This document shows, piece after piece, positions 8,165-63,443 of a stretch of DNA of 64,000 nucleotides. The notes under the pieces were generated by a model. That model ran no database searches and was not told the origin of the DNA. It saw only the letters and a list, made by a program, of their open reading frames with translations. The stretch spans positions 31,329,606 to 31,393,605 of the forward strand of contig JAFMSR010000008.1 in the NCBI GenBank assembly GCA_022818135.1, in the 5' to 3' direction. Within the stretch, counting starts at the first letter, position 1. Each line of letters starts with the position of its first letter. The DNA comes from Saxidomus purpurata (Eukaryota; Mollusca; Bivalvia; Venerida; Veneridae). The translations under genes were made by a program, and so were the position numbers.

Positions 8165-8782
8165 TTTAACATGTATAATACATATCTTACGTTTTTATTT
8201 AGTTTTCTTATCTCATACGACTGTCAATTTAATGTGCAAGAGGTATTGATACTAGAAAGAAACCAGTTATGCACACATCATGTTTATTCAGTGATAATAA
8301 TTTAAAGCTGGTGATTTTCCTCCCTACATCCGTTCCTTAAAGTTTTATCCCCACGCGTCGTCTTTTTCCTAGTGTTTATGATAATTTTACTTTCGATATA
8401 CTTGTGTGTATCTTGTAACAATTATTATTTAATATCTATTTCCTATCAGTTTGTTTTTAATGATCTTTTTTTATAGCGATTCACTTATTTATTGGTGGCG
8501 GCCATTTCAATCAAATGGTGACGTCATTTGTAGCCGATGACGTCGCGTGTCCCTTTTCTGAGGACCGATTTTGGCATAATCGGCCCTCACGCGCGGGCCG
8601 ATTATTTTATAATTCCCTAACCGTAACCATCATAATACTGTACAAATTTGTTACTTTATATAGTTACATATGTACAAAATATTATCGTCTAATTAACAAC
8701 TGTTTGTCGTTCTGATGCGCAGTTATATTCTTTGTGAATTACTGCGCATCAGAACTCCAAATAATTGTTTATTAAACAATAA
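8165..8782 (+). repeat. Second repeat family, copy B, with terminal hairpin
   Basis: This is the uninterrupted copy of the element split at 985-2845. It includes TGACGTCA at 8519-8526 and the conserved ATAATCGGCC / GGCCGATTAT hairpin at about 8576-8606. It ends in a 14-bp perfect inverted repeat, TTCTGATGCGCAGT (8710-8723) and its complement (8741-8754), within a longer imperfect hairpin of about 37-bp arms (8686-8782). Confidence 0.7.
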
Positions 8783-16938: not shown

Positions 16939-18542
16939 TATAGACAAACGCAAAACGCCAGTGCCATCGGCAATAAGTACACCTTGCCCATAGAATCCCA
17001 ACAAAAAAGTGCCAATGACAATAAGCGCACTAGGAATACAGAGACTCAAACCACAAGTGCCAATGACAATAAGTGCACAAGGTCCATAGGAACCCAAACA
17101 GAAGTGGTAACTAATAATGCATCCACACAATATGTTAGTGAGAGTAGAATAGGTAGTACACAAACAAATGAAATAGAGAAGAAATATATAGAAATACAAA
17201 CATTAACACCCATAGAAATTAATGCCACCCCCCAAAATGATAGGAAAAATACAAAAACAACATCACCCATACAACTAAAAAATAAATTTCAAATTTTAGA
17301 GGAGGGAGGGGAAAAAACTTTGGGAATACAAAAAGATACAAAAACTATCCCCACCCCAACCCCCCATACCACACAAAAACAGGCCAAATCACCAAAAGTA
17401 GGTAACAAAGAAAAATCGCCAAAATGGACCGATATGGTTATAAAAGGGGTTCAAGGGGGGCTTAGCACACAGAAACTGTTAGAAATAGAAAAAAAATTAA
17501 AACAACAATTCGGGGGGGGGGTGACAAAATTAAAAACATGGAAAGCAACAAAGGAATTTTATATTTCAAGGCTAGGTCCGATTTTGAAACAAAGATCAAA
17601 GATTTTAGGTTTGGAAGACATGAGCTTAAAATTGAAAACAAAAAAGCCCCAACCCCCAAAATATCAGACATAAGTATGGGAGTCCTAGAGGTGCCAAAAA
17701 ACCAAAGCACCGAACAATTCAAAAATAATCTCATGAAAAACAACAAAATCATTGCCACTGTACGGCAAAAAGAAATCAATAATAAGGGAAAAAGGGAAAA
17801 AACAAATCAGATCATTTTAACTTTTACTTGTTCAGAAATGCCAATAGAATTAGTGGGTTCAAATGAATTAGTTAAACCAACGACATTAAGTATCATAAGA
17901 TGTAGTAAGTGCCAAGCCCCAGGGCACAAAACACGACAATGTCGAAATAAAACCAAATGCCCGAAATGTACCGGCAACCATGAACTATCAATGTGCCAGG
18001 CTCAAATACTTAAATGCATCAATTGTTCGGGTAATCACTGGGGTTCAAGCAAAACTTGCCCCGTGTACAGAAAGTACGTATCAAAGATAAATGATACAAA
18101 CAATAAGATAACAAAGGAATATGAAACAAAGTGTGCCAAGATAAAGCACACTCCTCAAGATAAAATACCCCCTCCTATTGTCACCCCCACCCCAATTACA
18201 ACAGAAACCAAAGACAAAACCCAAAAATCTGACCCCAAAATTACAACACCCAAAAATATACCTAGTACTAAGGATATAATTAAAGTAAAACAAGAAAGGT
18301 GTGCTAACCCCTTACCCTCACCTCATAGCAAAATTAAAAGAGAACCTTCTTGGGGAGGGAATTATGGGTACCAACCAAGACACCAGGCAGGCCCAATGTA
18401 CTACAGATTTCAAGGGGGACTTAACCCAGTACCAACACTAAGGAGAATTACTAACACAAATCACCCACACCCACACATTCTCTACCCAGGACCAAATGGA
18501 CAAATGAAAATACATTGTCCACTAAACTTATGTAGAACTTAG
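16939..18542 (+). pseudogene. LINE ORF1, zinc-knuckle nucleic-acid-binding protein, frame-broken
   Basis: ORF1 products of I-type LINEs bind their own RNA and act as chaperones. The first part (to 17521) is Thr/Asn/Lys-rich and starts with three 16-residue repeats. The second part (17522-18542) contains a pre-knuckle domain and three motifs: CX2CX4HX4C (from 17901), CX2CX3HX4C and CX2CX3HX6C (ending about 18059), then a Pro/Thr-rich tail. The reading frame changes at a run of ten G (17512-17521). Read from the G run in the second frame, the protein continues without a stop, so one base gained or lost there explains the break. No ATG is present in the early frame; the true start is unclear. 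Confidence 0.8.
16960..17103 (+). repeat. 48-bp in-frame tandem repeat in LINE ORF1
   Basis: Three units start at 16960, 17008 and 17056, each beginning AGTGCC and encoding 16 residues of the type SANDNK-TR---TQT. The period is a multiple of three, so the repeat keeps the reading frame. Confidence 0.85.
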
Positions 18543-18585
18543 GCTAAAACACCGATAACACAAAACAACTCCGAATAAACCATTA

Positions 18586-21500
18586 ATGGATCACAAAACA
18601 GCTGAGGTAATTACTGAGTCCACCAGATCCTGCCTCAGCATCATTTCATGGAATATTCGGGGTATGAGATCAGAATCGTACACTAAATGTAATGAATTAC
18701 AAAATTTTCTCATAGATAAAACAAAACCAATAGATGTTATTTGTCTACAGGAAACCCATTTGGCAGAAAAACATAATCCTTTCAAATTCAAGGATTACCA
18801 AAAACCCGTAATGTTTCATAACAAAGAAACCCCCACCTCAGGATGGTTATGCATATATGTCCGCAACGGTCTATCATACATAACCAAAAATACTGATTAC
18901 AATAATGTTAATCAAAATATTGCAATAGAAATCATTGGCAAAGATAATAACATTTCGATTTATAATTACTATACAAATAGCAAAGAAAACAACAACATTA
19001 ATGTTTTTAGGAATACCTTCAAAAATTTAGGACAGTCAAATGTAACAGTAGGAGACTTCAATTTAAAACATCCACTTTGGAACCCCGAAAATGACTTTAG
19101 GCGCGATGCTGGGGCAGAGGATCTGATAGACTTTATGAACGAGTCAGATCTAAATTGCATAAACGATGGTCAATGCACCCGTCTCGCCGAGCAGGCAAAC
19201 CACACAGATTCAGCCCTGGATCTGTCTATAGTCTCCGCAGGTCTGCACCCTAGGGCAACGTTCCTTGTAGTCGACAACAGCTTCAGTAGTGATCATCTTC
19301 CAATAATCACAATAATAGAAACTCCAATAAGATTTGAAAATGTAATGATAACTGAAAAATGGCTGATAGACAAGGCATCCACGCCCAGTGGATGGAATTT
19401 CATCATTTATGCATGGTAGAATTAAATTACAAGATTAAGAATCAAACAGTAGAGGAAACTTTCAAAGAATTTCTAGATAAACTTAATGGTATTTTAGAAA
19501 AAACAATTCCAAAGTCTAAACCCAAAAATATCAAAACTAGAATCAAGAAAGTATGGTGGACACAGGAATGCCACGAAGCCATAAGAAGCAGAGAAATTAG
19601 ACGTAAAATTCATAAAAGGGAAAAAACTCCCATAACTCTCATTTTATTCAAAATGGCCCGAGCAAGAGCAGTAAGAGTAGTTAAAAAGGCAAAGCAGGAC
19701 AGTTGGCGCAAATTCTGCTCAACTATCACATGTAATACATCATCTAAGGAAGTTTGGAATTTTGTAAATAAAGTTAAAGGCAGTGTACCAAAGAGCAATC
19801 CAGTCTTTAAGATAGGCCAACAAAATATTACAGAACCAAAAGAAAAAGCTAACGCATTAGTCAAACAATATGCCGAAGCTAGCAGTAATAAAGGGTACAC
19901 TAGAGAATTTTTATTACACAAAAGGAATATAAACAGAGCAGTAAATGAACATATCAATGATAGGAACAATGATAACTCACAAGAATATAACCAAGAATTT
20001 ACTATATTTGAATTTAATAAAGCTTTGTCGAACTGCAAGGACGGTGCACCGGGAGAAGACCTGATTCATTACAAAATACTCAAAAAATTACCACAGGAAA
20101 GCAGGAATACACTTCTTCAAATCTTTAACCAATCATGGGTAGAGGGCACCACGCCAGAAAGCTGGAATCATGCAGTTATCATACCATTACTAAAACCTAA
20201 TAAAGACAAAAATGAACCTGCTTCTTATAGACCGATTTCTTTAACTTCAACATTTCCAAAACTAATGCAAAAAATGATTAAACCGAGACTGTGCACATAT
20301 TTAGAAAAGAACAATCTTATGTCCAAATACCAGTCCGGATGCAGGTCGCATCACTCATGCGACGATAACATCACTAGATTAGAGTCCGATTGCAAGAAAG
20401 CACAGGCAGAACACAAATATCTTATAGCTATATTTTTAGATCTGAGTAATGCATTTGATAAAATGTGGAACGGAGGAGCACTCATGCAACTCCTAAATTC
20501 TGGCATTCAAGGGCGCATGATAAAATGGTTAAGGTGCTTTTTACAAAACAGACAGATTAAGGTAAAATATAATGGAGCTCTCTCAGAGGTAGTGGAAACA
20601 GTGAATGGATGCCCCCAGGGAGCGGTATTGTCTCCCATAATTTTCAGTTTAATGATGAATACTTTCGAAGAACAAATTAAAAACCTTAATACGCAACACC
20701 CAACTATAAATGCTCAAATATCCCAATTTGTGGATGATTCAGCAACATGGCTAACCTCAAACAGTCCGGTGCAGGCAGTGAAAAAACCCAAACTGTTTTG
20801 AACGAAATAGAAAAATGGAGCAATTCATGGGGATTCATCATTAACCCGACTAAAACTCAAGTTTTATTAATACACAGACAGGCCGTAAAACCTCCGGAAA
20901 GAGCCACCAACTTTCCGAAATTAACATTATGTGGAACGAACCTCACATATAATGAGCATGCAAAATTTCTAGGGATGTATTTTGACAAAACCTTATCATG
21001 GAAAATGCACGTAGAATACATGTCGAAAAGATGTCTTAGAGACTTAAATATCATAAGAGCAGTAAAAGGGAAATCGTGGGGCACAGACAAAAAATGCCTT
21101 CTCAATATCTATAAGGCCCTCATCTTAAGCAAAATCAACTATGGCAGCATAGTTTATGCCTCCGCTAAAGATTCACAACTAAAAACAGTTCAAAGACTAC
21201 AAAACAGGGCACTAAAAACCATTATAGGATGTCCGAGGCACACCCCCACCCTCCCTCTACATACCGAGACTGCTATGATTCCACTGCCTCTGCAGAGAGA
21301 ACTTCAAGCTCTAAAATACTGGGCCAGAAGCTCCAGACTGGGCCCGAACTTACCAATCAACGATGAAATTTGTGACCAACCAGCATATTTTTATAAGACA
21401 AAGAGTAATAAAAATTTAAAGAAACCTTATTCACAAAGCATTAGGACATTAATCACAGAATACGGCCTAAGCGAAACCCAAATTCAAGAACCGTGCTACG

Positions 21501-22492
21501 AACAACTTATCAATATTGAAATGCCTAAGATTAACCTAGATTTAGTAGGGAAAATTAACAAAGCAGAAGATAATGAAAGAAACAAAATTATTGCAAATTT
21601 AAACATTATTAGACACTTTAGAGACTTTACTCAAATTTATACAGATGGTAGTAAAGACCCGTCCAAACAAATAGCAGGGGCGGGTATAGTAGTTATAGCA
21701 GAAGACGGCACAATTCTACATAACAAGAGTCTGAAGCTTAACCATCAAACTTCAATATTTACATGTGAATTAGCAGCAATAGATTATGCAATAACTTATT
21801 GCAAAGAAAACTATATTTCAAAAGCAGTCATTATTAGCGATAGTCTGAGTTCTTTATTAGCAATAAAATCAGGTCAGTCTCATAGGCAAGAAATGATTTA
21901 CAGTATTTTAAAGTCCGTTACAGCCATAAAGCATAGAGGGGACGAAATTCAATTAATGTGGGTACCGAGTCATGTGGGCATAAACGGAAATGAATTAGCA
22001 GACGACAAAGCAAAATTCGGCAGCACTTCCGGTACAGAAATTCCTATTAAGCTCAGTGTACCGGAAGTCTACAGCATCATAAAAGATAAAGTAAAACAAA
22101 AATATCTACAGCAATGGGAAACTTACTGCTCAACACATAACATAGAAATTAGTATTAAACCGCCTAGTAAATTACAAACGTACCATCATGATAGAAAAAT
22201 AGACACAATGTATACTAGACTTAAACTTAAAAGTAGCTATCTTAAAGGGGACCGATACATAGAAGACAAAAACTGCCAACACTGTAACGAAATAGAAAAT
22301 TTTGGCCATCTACTGTTTCACTGCCCATTATATTCGGAAGAAAGGAAAATATTTGAAACAAAACTTCTGAAATTAGAATTAATAACCATTACGGAAAAAA
22401 CTCTGTTAGATCCACCAAAAGAAATAGCACAAGATATTCGCCTGGCCGTATTCGAATTTATCAAAAATATAGGATACAATGAAAAAATATAG
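18586..22492 (+). pseudogene. LINE ORF2: endonuclease, reverse transcriptase, RNase H; two frame breaks
   Basis: The start ATG at 18586 lies 43 bp after the ORF1 stop. Endonuclease motifs are SIISWNIRGM, CLQETHL, VGDFNLKHPLW and SSDHLPI (18630-19310). Reverse transcriptase motifs are PASYRPISLTS, LIAIFLDLSNAFD, NGCPQGAVLSP and the catalytic FVDDS at 20727-20741, where YADD or FADD is usual. RNase H shows YTDGSK (21638-21655), CELAA, SDSLSS and WVPSHVGINGNELAD. The end has CX2CX8HX4C (CQHC...HLLFHC). The frame shifts at about 19370-19385 and again at about 20779-20788 next to an A6/C3 tract; either side of each break the domain homology continues, so each is a one-base change. Confidence 0.88.
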
Positions 22493-35134: not shown

Positions 35135-35634
35135 NNNNNNNNNNNNNNNNNNNNNNNNNNNNNNNNNNNNNNNNNNNNNNNNNNNNNNNNNNNNNNNNNN
35201 NNNNNNNNNNNNNNNNNNNNNNNNNNNNNNNNNNNNNNNNNNNNNNNNNNNNNNNNNNNNNNNNNNNNNNNNNNNNNNNNNNNNNNNNNNNNNNNNNNNN
35301 NNNNNNNNNNNNNNNNNNNNNNNNNNNNNNNNNNNNNNNNNNNNNNNNNNNNNNNNNNNNNNNNNNNNNNNNNNNNNNNNNNNNNNNNNNNNNNNNNNNN
35401 NNNNNNNNNNNNNNNNNNNNNNNNNNNNNNNNNNNNNNNNNNNNNNNNNNNNNNNNNNNNNNNNNNNNNNNNNNNNNNNNNNNNNNNNNNNNNNNNNNNN
35501 NNNNNNNNNNNNNNNNNNNNNNNNNNNNNNNNNNNNNNNNNNNNNNNNNNNNNNNNNNNNNNNNNNNNNNNNNNNNNNNNNNNNNNNNNNNNNNNNNNNN
35601 NNNNNNNNNNNNNNNNNNNNNNNNNNNNNNNNNN
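35135..35634. other. Assembly gap, 500 N
   Basis: Exactly 500 undetermined bases, the usual placeholder for a gap of unknown size. It lies between the old LINE and the first visible DCTD exon, so upstream DCTD exons may be hidden here. Confidence 0.98.
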
Positions 35635-55240: not shown

Positions 55241-57283
55241 GGATTTGGCATATACCCTGCTGCTTAAGGACTTGTGTAAGCTTCCAGACGTTGAAGGATC
55301 GCAGTGGCGTGAAAACAATGCTAACTTCTTTTCTTCGTAAACAAACCTGGGCTATTATATGCCCTCAGAAATCAAACAACCACGATTTAACTAATATTTA
55401 AATTTAACTTTATTAACAGTAATAAATATTGCCTAATCAATATTAAGGCTAGAATGACTTCATAAATTACTAAGGTTTAGTGTTAACACGTTATGCTAAT
55501 CAAAATATAAGGTCTCCGTGTTATGTTGTATCAACGCGAGTATACAATCGATATGACGGAACTTTATAAAATTTGCTTCAAGTCAAATCAATCCACTGTG
55601 GCATACAGGTACCAGATTCAATATATATGGAATTAGATGAACCAAATAAATAGACTAAATATCAAAATGTTATAAAAAGTCTAAAAAAGATAGTTCCATC
55701 TCGGCTTGAATCTATAATACTTTAATTAAAACTCTGAAAATATCTGATTCAGCTTACATTTAAATTCTTGACAGTATTGTTTACAATTTTCTGACAAAAA
55801 TTAGCGTGGACTGTCCCAAAGTATTTTCGAGAACTATAATGCCTTGTGTGACAAAAATGCGTTGCTTATATACTAAGCAGTGGTAGCAGCTACCCAAAAT
55901 TGGTAGATCTACCCGTTTCTGCTATTATTGGTAAAGCGTCTTCTACCCAAAAATGTATATATCATGGTAGCTACCAAAAATTGGTACCAAACTCCATGAA
56001 CTTAAATAACAAAAATGGCTATTGACATTTTATGAAAAATCGGACTGGCTAAGTTTAACAATAAACTTCTATAACAAATAAGATAAAAAAAACCTTAAGT
56101 TAAGTGCTAGAAGGTAGACAACAATGACTGAATTATTGGATTTTTGTTGAATTAGAGTTGTCTCTGCTATAAATATCTAGTGCTGCAACACGGTGAGCAA
56201 ACGAGGCCTATTTCAAGAGGTAACCGGGGCACCAAATACCACATTTAGTATTATATATCAAAATGACCGTTAGGGTCTGTAGTTTCTGAAACTGCTTGTT
56301 GCAGTTGTAAAATCCGTGCCGCAACACGGTTATTTGGGTGTAACATACATTACCCCTTAAACTTTCAAATGAAAATAATAAACTTTACATAAAAGTTTCA
56401 GAAATCTGTGTCAGAAAAACTATGTATTTTTGTTCAATATTCTAGGACAACAGAATATGAAGATAAAAATAGTGCATTTTTATGTTGCTTTATTCACAGT
56501 TTTGACCTACTTTTACCTTGTAATTTACGTTACCATGCGTTACCATTAAATATAATGGACTGTTTTTCATTCATTGTTACTCTTTATAAATATTTTGAAG
56601 CAAAGTAATGCACAGAAGCATAGGTCTGTATATTCTCATTTGAATGATAGTTCTTTTATATAGTTAGCGCATGTAGATTACGTAACATTCTTAAAAAATA
56701 CGTTACATATAATTACATAAAATTTACAAAAAAGTTTTATCTCATTAAAAATGTTAAAGCAATGGTTTTTGAAACCAGTTTTTGTCTCAAACATATTGTA
56801 AAGAGTAAAACAAACCTGGATGTAAGTGTGAACAGTGTAATTTACATAACCGTACGTTACCTTGATAATTTAATTGAATCATATTTACATAAATTAGGCT
56901 CTATGTTTCATATCTAAATCATGGGTAAATGGGATATAAACTTGATTATGTTTAACAAAACACTTAGGAGTAAATATATTTACTTTAGGTTGATAAATCA
57001 TAAATGCTTCTCATTAATTTGTTACTAATGACCAAAATGCCTTCAGTACCTAAAGTAGAACAGCAGCATTGTACACAAATATACATATATATTGGAATAC
57101 AAGCTATTAATATGCATAACAGGCGTCTAAGATAGCAATAACCACTGAACTGTGACTATTTTGATTGTTTGCTGAAAGGTATTGAAAACAAATATAAAAA
57201 AATCATGCATAATCCATTTAATAGTGTTTGTATATTAACAACGGTGTTACAAAAGTTACTTCCCTTAGATTTAAGTTCTCCAC
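55241..57283. other. No gene recognised
   Basis: AT-rich sequence upstream of the large gene. At 55880-56000 the words CTACCCAAAA and TTGGTAG recur in both orientations. GCAACACGG occurs at 56184 and 56311. None amounts to a gene. Confidence 0.4.
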
Positions 57284-57771: not shown

Positions 57772-59443
57772 ATGGCTGCATCTGACACTAAAGACTTTTT
57801 CCATAAAAGCGAACTTAATTTTGATTCTGATGTATGTGCCTTCTGTTCATCCAAATTTACAAAGGCAAATCCGTGCGTGACTGCAGATGTTTCACGCCTG
57901 GAAAGGCTATTCAAAGCATGCGAAATAAGAAATGACTTCAATGGAAAGCGAATTTTAAGAAACGCATCTGAAATTATCAATGGCAAACTGCCTTTGTGTT
58001 ACCATAGAAATTGTAGAGCAACTTATCAAAGTTCTTATCATCACAGCTTTGTGTTGAAAGAAAATGAATTTCATCAAATAGAAAACAGTGATAAAAGCAA
58101 TGCTAAGAAAAACATTACACGCTCAAATTGCAAAACCTTCGATTGGAAATCCTGCTGTTTCATTTGCACCGAAAAATGTGAGCAAATCAGAGACAATTCG
58201 CGTTTAAGTCGTAGTTGGTCAATGGTGGAATCTGCTGTAGACGGAAATCAAGATAACGTTTATTCAAGAGTGTATAAGGCCGCAGAACGCAAAAATGATA
58301 AACCAATGCTCCATAGGCTTAATAATGTTTCAAATTGTGACTTAGTTGCAGTTGAAGCAAGGTACCACAGGAAAAAAGCATGTCTTATATCTTATCTCAG
58401 TCCAAGTAAAGGTTTTGAAAAGGCTGAAACACAAGAAACAAGAGCAAGTTGTTACAAAACAATTGCAAAACAACTAAAGGCTGAATTTGAAATTGATATA
58501 ATGGAGAACAAACAAGTGTACACATTATCTGTGTTAAAGAAGAGATTTCTTGAAATTGCCAAAGACGATGGTTTGGAAAGTGCGGATTGTTATCAAAGTA
58601 AACGCTTTAAATTACTCTTGAGCAGCATATGGCCAGAGTTGTCATTTATTTATCAGAATGGGGCTTCTGACTTGGTCTGTTCCTGTACGTTAACAGTAGG
58701 AGATGCCCTGAAGGCTGCAGAAAAGTCTGAAAAGCTACGAAGAAAATCTACTGAAGAAGACGAAGAGTTAGTACTTCCTGATGAAACTGATGAAAGTATT
58801 GTGCATAGAGCTGTTGGTATTCTGAGGAAAAAGATTTGTGAAACAAATGAAAAACTTGAGCATGAATATTATGCTGTTGATGAAATATCTTTACAGTCTC
58901 AGAAAATGTATGTAGATCCTCTCTTGCACAAGGCTGTATATTGGCTCTCAGATAGCAAAGGATATTTGAACGCATCAGCCCCACCTGATGATCTTCTTGA
59001 TCCAAAATTAATTTCTGTTGCATGTGATATCACTACACTTGTAACTACAGTGTTCAGTCCAAAACACCTTGGTCTTGGTGTTCATCTGTTTAACGAGTTT
59101 GGAAGCAGACATTTGATAGAGGAGATGAATAGTATGGGCTATTGTATTTCATACAATGAACTACGGCAGTTTTTGTCTTCTGCTGCATATCACATATCAA
59201 ACAATTGTGTGAAAACTCCGTCAGGTGGCTTAGTGCCAGACAGCATTATTCCTCGAGACAAAGGTGGTAAACTTATTGTAGCATCAGGGGACAATTGGGA
59301 TCATAACGAAAAAACGGTAGACGGTAAACAGACAACTCATGCTATGACATCGATACTTGTATCACCGAAGTCATCGGAGAAACACACTAAACAAAGACTT
59401 CCAAGAGTAAAGGAGAAGACATTTGACAGTCGTTGTATGCCAG
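57772..59443 (+). CDS. Large FEN1/XPG-like (PIN-fold) protein, first coding exon
   Basis: This exon encodes residues 1-557 of a predicted 1619-residue protein. The start ATG follows AGG and precedes G (AGGATGG). Two Cys/His clusters are visible: C22-x2-C25 with H78-x2-C81 (LCYHRNC), and C129-x2-C132 with H199-x4-C204 (ARYHRKKAC), probably zinc-binding modules. Near the end is a conserved-looking block, GGLVPDSIIPRDKGGK and ASGDNWDHNEKTVDGKQTTH. I recall similar Cys/His modules in uncharacterised multicopy proteins of cnidarians, molluscs and fish. The frame runs on to 59565, but the CAG|GTAAAC donor after residue 557 joins in phase to an acceptor at 59710, so the last 40 codons are probably intron. 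Confidence 0.8.
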
Positions 59444-59710
59444 GTAAACATGTACTGCAAAATAAATACCCCTTTATATGTGATAAGAGTATCGTTCATT
59501 TTGAAAAACAGAAGTCTACTACATATTTTCAAACTAGCAAATTTGATGCATGCATCAATGTATAAATTAGTTCACTTTATCGACAAAGTCATTAAATACT
59601 AGTATCAGTGCAGATTGTAGCTTTGTATACAATTTCTTGCAATTTTTAATAAGTGACTAACATATTATTCCTCCTTTTATTGAAAGTAGCTACATGACTT
59701 TATTTTTCAG
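59444..59710 (+). other. Predicted intron of the large gene, 267 bp
   Basis: Donor CAG|GTAAAC and acceptor TTATTTTTCAG. Both edges are phase 1, giving ...CMPG|GSLCSIIPYRKP across the joint. The first part is open in frame, so an unspliced message would end at 59565 and yield a 597-residue short form. Confidence 0.7.
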
Positions 59711-62700
59711 GTGGCAGTTTGTGCAGCATTATCCCGTACAGGAAACCGATTTCAAGACCAAATCCGGAATTTGATCCGCCAGTTGATGTGAGTGAAGTAA
59801 AACCTATAGCATCAAAAGTTGTGTCTGAAGCTAGATTGAAAGAATTGCTTTACAATTTTGGAAGGTGTTCTGTGTTCTGTGATGATCTGTCTGAGCCAAA
59901 GACAATTTCTCCGTGGAGTGTCTTTCATGCCCGAAGTCAGCGCACTACAGAAAAGGCAGTATCAAATGTTGCATTTAACCCAATAATAATGGCGAAACCA
60001 ACAGATCACAGCACAGTATATACAACATTATTGCGAATGAAGGAGTGTGTAAATGCATTAGGACAAGAGCATGTGCCAGTCTTTTTTGACATGGCTTTAC
60101 TTTCAAAGGCATTGGAAATTATTTGGGCAAGGAAAGAAGAACTTTCAGGTGTCATTGCATTTGAAGGAGGGATGCATTTGCTTATGTCAATTTTCGCTGG
60201 AATAGGTCACTTGTATGGCAATATTGGTCTTCGACAACTTCTCATAGATTCAGATTTGTATGCAGCAGGTACTGTTTCTATGATCATGACAGGTAAAGAC
60301 TTTGATCGTGCAATGACTGCTTACAAGCTTATTGATGAGACACTTCAAATTAGATTTTTAAAGAACTTTGAAGTATGGTGCATTGAAAACAACAAAGACA
60401 TTCCAGATGATTTTGTCTGCACACTGAATCAGTTGAGGAATGAATCAGACAATGTTGAATTGTCTGAGACATCAGAAAAACTTTGCAAGCAAATCGAAGA
60501 ACATATTTGTCCTTTGTTAAATGAATTCAGAAATGAAGGGCGCCTTCAGTCACCTACATTTAGATTGTGGGATGATTACCTTACCAGAGTCTCGCTTCCT
60601 CTGAAATTATTTATCGCTTCAACAAGAACTGGTAATTGGGATCTAAATAAGTATGCCAAAGTGTCACTTCTGCCTTTGCTATTTGCTTCAAACAGATCTA
60701 CTTACTCGCGATACATGGTCATTGAAGCACTTCAAATGAACCGACTTCCAGCTGATATTGAAAAAGGATTTTCAGATGGTTTGTTCACCGCCAAACTTTC
60801 AGAGGGGAAATTCAATAACGTGTGGATAGACTACACACTTGAAACTACTGAAAACAAAGCACTTAAAGGTTCAGGTGGTATTATTGGACTAACACTCAAA
60901 GAAAATGCTTTAGCTAGGTGGTTTTTGTCGCGACCTGTTTCCTCTCATTACAGCATGACATTTCATGACAATCTGTCCAAGAAATTTAATAATGAAACAT
61001 CAAGCACATATCGTGGTGACAAAAAGGCAAAGCGTGAACTGGTTGATAATAGTGTGAAGAAACTAACATCGATGTTTGATGGAAACTTCATAGATCCTTT
61101 TGACTTGAAAAACAATCCCAGTAGTCTTGTAAATTTTGCAACAGCAGAACACGTTCCAAAGGAGACTGAAAAGAGTATGTTATACTGTTTAGATGCAGGA
61201 AGAGACATGTTAGAAAAATTTATAACCGAGCGCCTTATAGTGAAAGATGGCAAAACATCACCTGAAAAGTCCTTCTATGACCCCCTTCCTAGAAGCAAAG
61301 TCAAACCAACGACTCAAGAAAGAAATATATGTACAAACAGGCATACCACTAAAATAGGCAATGATGTCATGTTCCAGAGGCTACTAGCAGTAAATGCATA
61401 CAAACAGGTTCCATCCGAAAGAGTTTTTGCGTTTGAAAACACAACAGTTCCCCTGAGTATATTCTCTGAGGATGGATTGATGTTATCAGGCAAGAAGTCT
61501 GACTTCATGGAAAAACTAGAACATCTCCTAGATTGCAAAATGACAAACATTGACGGAGCTGACTGTATAATATATGATGCTATGGCAGTTGTTCAAATTC
61601 TAACGGCATCTCACCCACAGACAACATTCAAAGATATGGCACAGATGTTCCTGAAATATGTCCTCATGAAATCTCGTTCTGAAGTGGCAGCTAAGGAAAT
61701 CCACATCGTATTTGACAGATACATTGAAAACAGTTTAAAAGGTCAAAAACGTCAAAAGAGAGGAGATAGTCAAGTTAGCAAGAAGGTGCATGTTCAAGGT
61801 AATATGCAAATTCCTAAAGATTGGAAAGGGTTTTTGTCGAAAGGAGAAAACAAAGATAGTCTGATATGTTTTTATACTGGGTACATGAAGGAAAATGCGC
61901 AAACAGAGCTGAAAGCTAGTGAAAAATTATTTGTCAGTGGTGGAGAAGGAAACAAAACAATTTTAATAACAGTCGATGCATGTAAGGAGATTCCTGATTT
62001 ATTTTCTAACCAAGAAGAGGCAGACACAAGAATTATCTTACATGCTGTATATGCATGTGACCGAGGTGCAAATATAGTAGTTGTTAATAGTCCAGATACT
62101 GATGTACTGGTTCTTCTCCTGCACCACAAACAGAAATTTGCTGCCAGCAAAATTTATTTATTCACAGGAAGAGTTGGTCTACACACAGATTTGAAACGAT
62201 ACATTCCAGTACACAAGCTGTTTGATGTCTTGACCGAAGAACAAAAGAACATTTTACTATCGGTGTACTGTATTACAGGATGCGATACATGTAGTTTCTT
62301 TTATGGCAAAGGAAAAAAAACAATCTTCAAGGTGTTCATTCAGAAGGCTTATAAATTTCAAGATCTTCGGGATCTTGGATCTAATCTCCAAGAAGATCAT
62401 ACGTTGCATTTTGATGCATGCAGGAAGTTTACAGCAGAGCTATATGGTTTTGCGGATTTAACACTGGATCAAATAAGATGCAAAAAAGCAAAGAAGTCTG
62501 TACAGCCTAGACTTCTTCCACCAACAGAAAATAGTTTCTACCAGCATTATCTACGTTGTGCTTTACAGCTTTATATTTGGCGAAATGCTGCTGTATCTGT
62601 AACTGATGTTCCATCTCCGTCACAATTTGGTTACGAACATGATATGGACAGTGGTTGTCTGAAGCCAGTACTTATGACGCAACCAGTCGCGGCACCCGAA

Positions 62701-62898
62701 CTTTTAAATGACATGGTTTGTCACTGTGAAATTTGCAACGAGGATTGCACCTGTTTTTTAAGCTCACAGCCTTGTACATTTGCATGCATGTGTAGGTCAC
62801 AACGCTCTACAACCGAAAGTAGACCTGTCTGTACAAATATTTATACCCTGGAACTTGAAGTACAAAGAAATCTAGAAATCTCAGAAGCAGACATTTGA
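59711..62898 (+). CDS. Large FEN1/XPG-like (PIN-fold) protein, second coding exon
   Basis: This exon encodes residues 558-1619. Residues 558-1150 are a helical region without a motif I can name. From about 1170 the order of FEN1/XPG nucleases appears: IIYDAMAVVQ (D1180, like the N-terminal metal ligand), HIVFDRYIE (D1226, like VFDG), QEEADTR (E1327-A-D1329, like E-A-E), NSPDTDVLVL (D1353 and D1355) and TGCDTCSFFYGKGKK (D1416, followed by a GxGxK turn like the helix-two-turn-helix start). All seven acidic positions are present in order. FEN1-type enzymes cut flaps and 5' branches of DNA. The tail has a Cys cluster (1561-1585). No stop or shift occurs over 3.2 kb, so it is under selection or very young. 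Nuclease activity is inference. Confidence 0.8.
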
Positions 62899-63272: not shown

Positions 63273-63443
63273 ATAGGGTTAACGTTTTAGTTATTTTGAC
63301 ATTTGCGACCGTATATACTGTTTTAATGATCGCAAACAGTTTTAACAGCTCAGGCCAACGTCGTCGCCGTTAAGGATATTTGCAGCCATTAAAACCGTAT
63401 ATACAGTAGCAAATATCAAAATTACAAAACAGTTAATCCTATA
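63273..63443. repeat. Palindromic MITE-like element, 171 bp
   Basis: The left arm ATAGGGTTAACGTTTTAGTT...CGTATATACTG is answered inverted by CAGTATATACGG-like sequence and AACAGTTAATCCTAT. Arms of about 64 bp are roughly three-quarters identical around a GC-richer loop (CAGGCCAACGTCGTCGCC). Confidence 0.7.

Follow-up and report, generated by a model that had tools for sequence, protein, structure and literature searches.

A FEN1/EXO1-like nuclease domain in the large protein of a probable AcademX-type transposon of the bivalve Saxidomus purpurata

The two-exon gene and its reading frame

The window analysed here is a stretch of 64,000 nucleotides from the genome of Saxidomus purpurata (assembly GCA_022818135.1, contig JAFMSR010000008.1, positions 31,329,606 to 31,393,605), and all positions are given within it. 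Its forward strand, to which every feature of the gene and element below belongs, carries a gene for a 1619-residue protein with Cys/His modules and a nuclease-like domain, which is part of a mobile element. Exon 1 (57772..59443) is an open frame of 557 codons and one base, and exon 2 (59711..62898) adds 1062 codons, counting the split codon, before the stop. They are separated by a phase 1 GT-AG intron (59444..59710) and join in phase into 1619 codons and a stop, which agrees with the intact frame after one phase-compatible intron that had been proposed in the original prediction, a first reading of this DNA made without database searches. Besides the sequence and the length of the joined frame, the splice is supported by two other genomic copies, L017 and C17a (in L010), whose stop-free, intron-less frames cross the junction without gaps when aligned with the window protein. 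Hence, the removal of 59444-59710 from the window gene appears well supported.

The window gene carries this intron at its MPG/GG junction, and so apparently does the C10 copy, judging from its broken frame there; L017 and C17a lack it. It has therefore been gained or lost inside one transposon family.

The nuclease-like domain and its conserved acids

Residues 1145-1497 (61471..62529) form a PIN/XPG-like domain, delimited by a match to a profile of FEN1, EXO1, GEN1 and XPG and by an alignment of ten copies. Seven predicted metal ligands, D1180, D1226, E1327, D1329, D1353, D1355 and D1416 (61576..62286), are supported by the register of EXO1 and by conservation, and they are followed by GKGKK (62305..62319), aligned with the GIG of EXO1 and FEN1 as the counterpart of the GxGxK found in these enzymes after the last Asp.

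The alignment comprises the window protein and nine other genomic copies, the most distant being 24-28% identical to it, and contains 16 invariant columns. D1180, D1226, E1327, D1329, D1355 and D1416 are invariant in all ten copies, and so are K1153, R1238, R1241 and K1272. The seven FEN1-like acids are located at the residues given in the original prediction. The seventh acid, D1353, is kept in nine of the ten copies; the exception is L137, a copy very similar to L053, with G at this position and EEDD instead of EEAD. The original prediction had named homologues lacking the acidic positions as evidence against it; with regard to six acids no such copy exists among the ten, and with regard to D1353 there is one. 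The chance that six acids drawn at random from the 44 of the window domain all fall among the proposed seven is 1e-6, a figure that is only approximate because the proposed motifs looked conserved beforehand.

Comparison with FEN1, EXO1, GEN1 and XPG

The domain was compared with known nucleases by profile-profile alignment (hhalign). A scan of archaeal genomes with human FEN1 gave 142 relatives, the best 80 of which were combined with human FEN1 in a FEN1 profile. A broader profile was built from human FEN1, EXO1, GEN1 and XPG together with every fourth of the 80 archaeal loci, 20 in all. The ten-copy profile matched the broader one with an E-value of 1.6e-5, a probability of 79% and a score of 45.9; none of 150 shuffles scored as high (29.1 at most), and a control with the proteins' own upstream domain reached 18.2. 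In this alignment, where identity is 18%, all seven acids stand opposite D30, D78, E150, D152, D171, D173 and D225 of EXO1 (counted on the EXO1 sequence used), and the GKG motif stands opposite the GIG of EXO1. Regarding these data and the conservation across copies, residues 1145-1497 are very likely a remote relative of FEN1, EXO1 and XPG, as the divergent FEN1/XPG-type domain of the original prediction implied.

Other comparisons count against such a kinship. The profile of human and archaeal FEN1 gave an E-value of 0.14 with seven rows of the family and a weak match with ten (nine after the program's filter; E-value 0.009, probability 4.5%), which none of 200 column shuffles equalled; E1327 and D1329 are two columns out of register in the FEN1-only alignment. 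A Pfam scan of exon 2 found no match, and seven family members scanned with Pfam showed no likeness to XPG_N or XPG_I at E-values of 10 or lower. XPG_I found eight places over the genome, none of them a listed copy of this family, so that the profile search with these two families, proposed earlier as a check, did not bear the prediction out. A search of PDB sequences with the exon-2 protein and a seven-row profile returned no FEN/XPG chain, and AlphaFold2, run on the window sequence alone, gave no usable model (mean predicted local distance difference test, pLDDT, 34.3 for exon 2 and 35.9 for the nuclease domain). Because of the missing XPG_N and XPG_I matches, the domain is called here a remote relative and not a member of XPG_I.

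The missing Pfam and PDB matches and the lack of a usable model would also be expected if the acidic constellation were a product of chance in a domain unrelated to FEN1/XPG. However, this explanation is barely credible, since six of the seven acids are invariant in ten out of ten copies and the profile score of 45.9 lies far from the values of both the shuffles and the upstream domain.

The window domain thus has in common with FEN1, EXO1, XPG and GEN1 the seven ordered acids in the EXO1 register and the GxG motif after the last Asp. It differs from them in its low identity and its position, at the N-terminus in those enzymes and late in a 1619-residue transposon protein here. Viral contigs were scanned as well: the single window protein gave no pattern match, the family alignment matched the pattern in 28 stretches, none of which encodes a relative, and human FEN1 gave two pattern matches and no relative.

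Copies and mobility

The genome searched amounts to 1.135 Gb in 4232 contigs. The DNA of exon 2 had 15 matches, including the window. With the window protein, 52 matches were obtained including itself (43 of 1047 first-look candidates scored), distributed over 15 large and two small contigs, and several of them are pieces of one copy.

Some copies are nearly identical. The C9 and C17 copies agree in 98.4% of positions over 9 kb and are bounded by a common left terminus, and the C10 copy and the copy at 31.6 Mb of C9 agree in 99.7% over 5.9 kb. The C9 copy starts with TAGTGTAGCAAA and ends in its reverse complement, and its inverted repeats are about 470 bp long and 74% identical. In the C10 copy, which opens with TGGTAGGGTGAC and closes in the same manner, the inverted repeats measure 674 bp with 85% identity. 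TTA is found on both sides of C9 and of C10, that is, in both copies whose two termini are visible, and represents a 3-bp target duplication. One such match alone could be chance, since the first base of the element is fixed only to within 1-2 bp. Moreover, the right ends of four copies of the C10 subfamily (L028, L033, L029 and L041) fall at the same point within 1-2 bases and adjoin different DNA. These copies, their inverted termini, the TTA duplications and the left terminus of the window copy (described below) confirm that the window gene belongs to a mobile element, and the count of copies and comparison of their edges, which had been suggested as a check, gave the expected outcome of termini common to the copies.

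Concerning the codon positions, the window gene differs from L017, L010 and L030 at 0.49-0.55 of third positions and 0.17-0.19 of second positions. Among near copies, the differences are about even over the codon positions in five of seven comparisons (L027 with L028, L033 and L032; L047 with L052 and L048) and lean to third positions in two, L017 with L018 (5, 6, 13) and L027 with L029 (22, 12, 42). The values over the codon positions are also nearly even for the window gene against L015 (0.135, 0.118, 0.152) and L016 (0.139, 0.120, 0.174). As expected for such an element, this pattern would fit a protein that is selected during movement and then left to drift.

Ends of the window copy

The left terminus of the window copy (TAGTGCTGCAACACGG..., 56178..56297) is the outer part of a terminal inverted repeat. 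A profile built from six termini that belong to other copies aligned with 56179-56297, beginning at its position 2, with 40.3 bits (E-value 5.8e-12), compared with 5.3 bits for the highest-scoring of 100 dinucleotide-resampled versions of 14 kb, and the motif itself was placed at 56178. Over its first 11 bases, TAGTGCTGCAA, this left terminus agrees fully with the right terminus of L012.

The right terminus and the target duplication of the window copy were not found within the window. In other copies the right terminus lies about 1.2-2.2 kb beyond the last coding frame (frame end and terminus at 8406 and 9608 in C10, 9385 and 11080 in C9, 7357 and 9575 in L017 as oriented, and about 6925 and 9153 in L012), so that the right end of the window copy is expected at about 64.1-65.1 kb. 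At the place where this end is expected the sequence consists of N, which begins at 64001 and fills the rest of the 9.9-kb stretch that was fetched. It probably lies just outside the window.

A total of 59 pairs of inverted repeats was found around the gene, and the 25 longest were inspected. The pairs 56519/63584, 56834/63587 and 54804/63911 were considered as element ends and are read as chance, because the left end indicated by the termini of other copies is at 56178. At 63273-63442, past the gene and before the window ends, there is an inverted repeat of 77 nt, 78% complementary, with 16 nt between its arms.

The frame of 1619 codons is intact, whereas those of L015 and L016, two near relatives at about 80% identity, are broken, which could suggest that the host has domesticated the gene and kept it for a cellular nuclease function. 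This is very improbable. At 1.6 kb upstream there is a terminus still recognisable as that of the element, long intact frames are also found in recent copies of other subfamilies (L017, L027 and L047), and the differences from L015 and L016 are nearly even over the codon positions, although the decay of those copies alone could have this effect. The earlier suggestion of a host gene captured from an element is not favoured for similar reasons: the terminus is still recognisable, and the relatives are present in many copies with termini at their edges.

Cys/His modules and a candidate transposase core

Two Cys/His modules of the form CxxC...YHxxC are located near the N-terminus. Module 1 (C22, C25, H78 and C81; 57835..58014) recurs in the only other frame that reaches that far, that of the C10 copy (x27a). 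Module 2 (C129, C132, H199 and C204; 58156..58383) is complete in two other copies, C17a and x27a, in which all four residues are aligned; the L047 frame begins past the CxxC of this module, and there the His is kept and the Cys is two residues off. At the other end of the protein, a Cys-rich module (C1561, C1563, C1566, C1570, C1572, C1579, C1583, C1585 and C1598; 62719..62832) was recognised by copy alignment: its nine Cys are identical in the window protein, L017, L027 and L047 and mostly absent in L053. Its spacing in the window protein, C-x-C-x2-C-x3-C-x-C-x6-C-x3-C-x-C, is close to the CXC (tesmin/TSO1) pattern. Both the N-terminal Cys/His pairs and the Cys-rich tail noticed in the original prediction are therefore recurrent parts of the family, and they may bind zinc.

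Between these modules and upstream of the nuclease domain, conserved acids suggest a DDE transposase core. The candidate first Asp is in DNWDHNE (59290..59310), whose D507 and D510 are kept in the four copies aligned there (L017, L047, C17a and x27c). The candidate second Asp, D684, accompanies a GG(M/F)H motif with H713 (60088..60177), and D684 and H713 (D127 and H156 of P0001) are invariant in six of six aligned rows. The motif IDYTLETTEN (60829..60858) contains D931 and the candidate third acid E935 (D374 and E378 of P0001), likewise invariant in six of six rows. This order, with an Asp after a strand-like stretch, a second Asp, GG-x-H and D-x3-E-x3-N, would be consistent with a DDE transposase carrying an insertion between its second and third acids.

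The middle domain also bears on DUF6589 (PF20231), a Pfam family of unknown function. The likeness to this family is confined to L053 among seven members, whose middle domain matches it weakly (E-value 3.8e-5, 23 bits, below the curated cut-off of 27); the window protein itself was unmatched in the Pfam scan. Because of this weak likeness, DUF6589 may be a transposase core. Over the genome, 90 matches to DUF6589 were observed at E-values up to 0.01 (102 of 122 candidates scored), in frames of up to 1051 amino acids, and no paper on DUF6589 was found in the literature searched.

Assignment to AcademX

The original descriptions of AcademX, by Kapitonov and Jurka in 2010 and by Kojima in 2020, reportedly included a nuclease of XPG type. 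Academ itself is listed as a superfamily in Repbase 2015 (PMC4455052). A 2023 paper (PMC10045372) attributes to AcademX target duplications of 3-4 bp and a nuclease, and to AcademH duplications of 9-10 bp and a helicase, and relates the lengths to the enzymes. A 2023 survey of molluscs places Academ among the longest of the DDE/D elements that it covers and describes it as almost confined to bivalves (PMC10294476).

The element studied here presents terminal inverted repeats, the 3-bp duplication in C9 and C10 and an encoded nuclease-like domain. Since the nuclease and the 3-bp duplication match published characters of AcademX, the element is filed under that name, and it is most likely of this described kind rather than undescribed. 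AcademH is said to belong to the same superfamily, but it has, according to PMC10045372, a helicase and duplications of 9-10 bp in contrast to the nuclease-like domain and 3 bp found here; when the window protein and six of its relatives were scanned with Pfam, no helicase family appeared. KolobokD and KolobokE are DDD/E lineages that also have an added nuclease, but of the DnaQ or lambda-exonuclease type according to PMC9587614, versus PIN/XPG here.

The best explanation of the whole, including the candidate DDE core and the mechanism proposed below, is that the window gene encodes the single large protein of a cut-and-paste transposon of AcademX type, to which a probability of about 80% is given. 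Some points weigh against it, along with the unfavourable searches of the nuclease domain, the one copy with G in place of D1353 and the right end and duplication missing from the window: at its right terminus the C17 copy is short of the 44 outermost profile positions, the candidate DDE core is recognised by its conserved residues, and the assignment to AcademX, although probable to the same degree, was made from the published description.

These last points leave some room for a transposon with terminal inverted repeats and a FEN1-like nuclease that belongs outside Academ, in a lineage or superfamily still unnamed. The likeness to AcademX being one of description, and most of the protein being unmatched by Pfam models apart from the weak DUF6589 match of one member in seven, such a placement could be considered. 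Nevertheless, it is unlikely, given that the tested published characters of AcademX (nuclease and duplication of 3-4 bp) are found here and that Academ elements are reported to be numerous and amplified in bivalve genomes (PMC10294476). Slightly more doubtful still is a fuller version, an unnamed non-Academ superfamily whose FEN1-type nuclease would be a working part of transposition, cutting the non-transferred strand and fixing the 3-bp duplication, and not an accessory repair enzyme.

In the literature searched, no paper contained Academ, transposase and XPG together as whole words, and searches on PIN domain, XPG, transposon and Cnidaria gave none on such an element, as judged by title. 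The earlier view of the protein as the core of an undescribed mobile element holds with regard to mobility, on account of the termini and copies, and is not supported with regard to novelty, as the characters of AcademX had already been published.

Other features of the window

Upstream of the element, at 16939-22492 of the forward strand, there are consecutive stop-free frames of 244, 358, 286, 481 and 584 residues in which CCHC-like Cys and endonuclease-like, reverse transcriptase-like and RNase H-like regions were recognised by eye. This region looks like a retrotransposon without long terminal repeats (a long interspersed nuclear element, LINE, of Jockey-like type). A 500-base run of N at 35135-35634 is possibly an assembly gap.

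Proposed mechanism and implications

Under the AcademX assignment, the middle part of the protein would be a DDE transposase with an RNase H fold (D507/D510, D684 and E935) that cuts and joins the 3' ends, and the two N-terminal Cys/His modules together with the C-terminal CXC-like module would bind the terminal repeats. The FEN1-like domain could cut the other strand, or trim 5' flaps at the gaps that excision and insertion leave, and this cutting or trimming may explain why the duplication is as short as 3 bp here, against 9-10 bp in AcademH. The copy in the window is an insertion with an intact frame, and its left end lies at 56178. The alignments give the presence and conservation of these parts, from which their roles are proposed.

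The findings place an active site of FEN1/EXO1 type, with its acids conserved, within a protein encoded by an animal DNA transposon of recent movement in this genome. The residues named here provide a concrete set for asking what part a flap-type nuclease plays in transposition, and they bear on why the nuclease branch leaves duplications of 3-4 bp and the helicase branch duplications of 9-10 bp.

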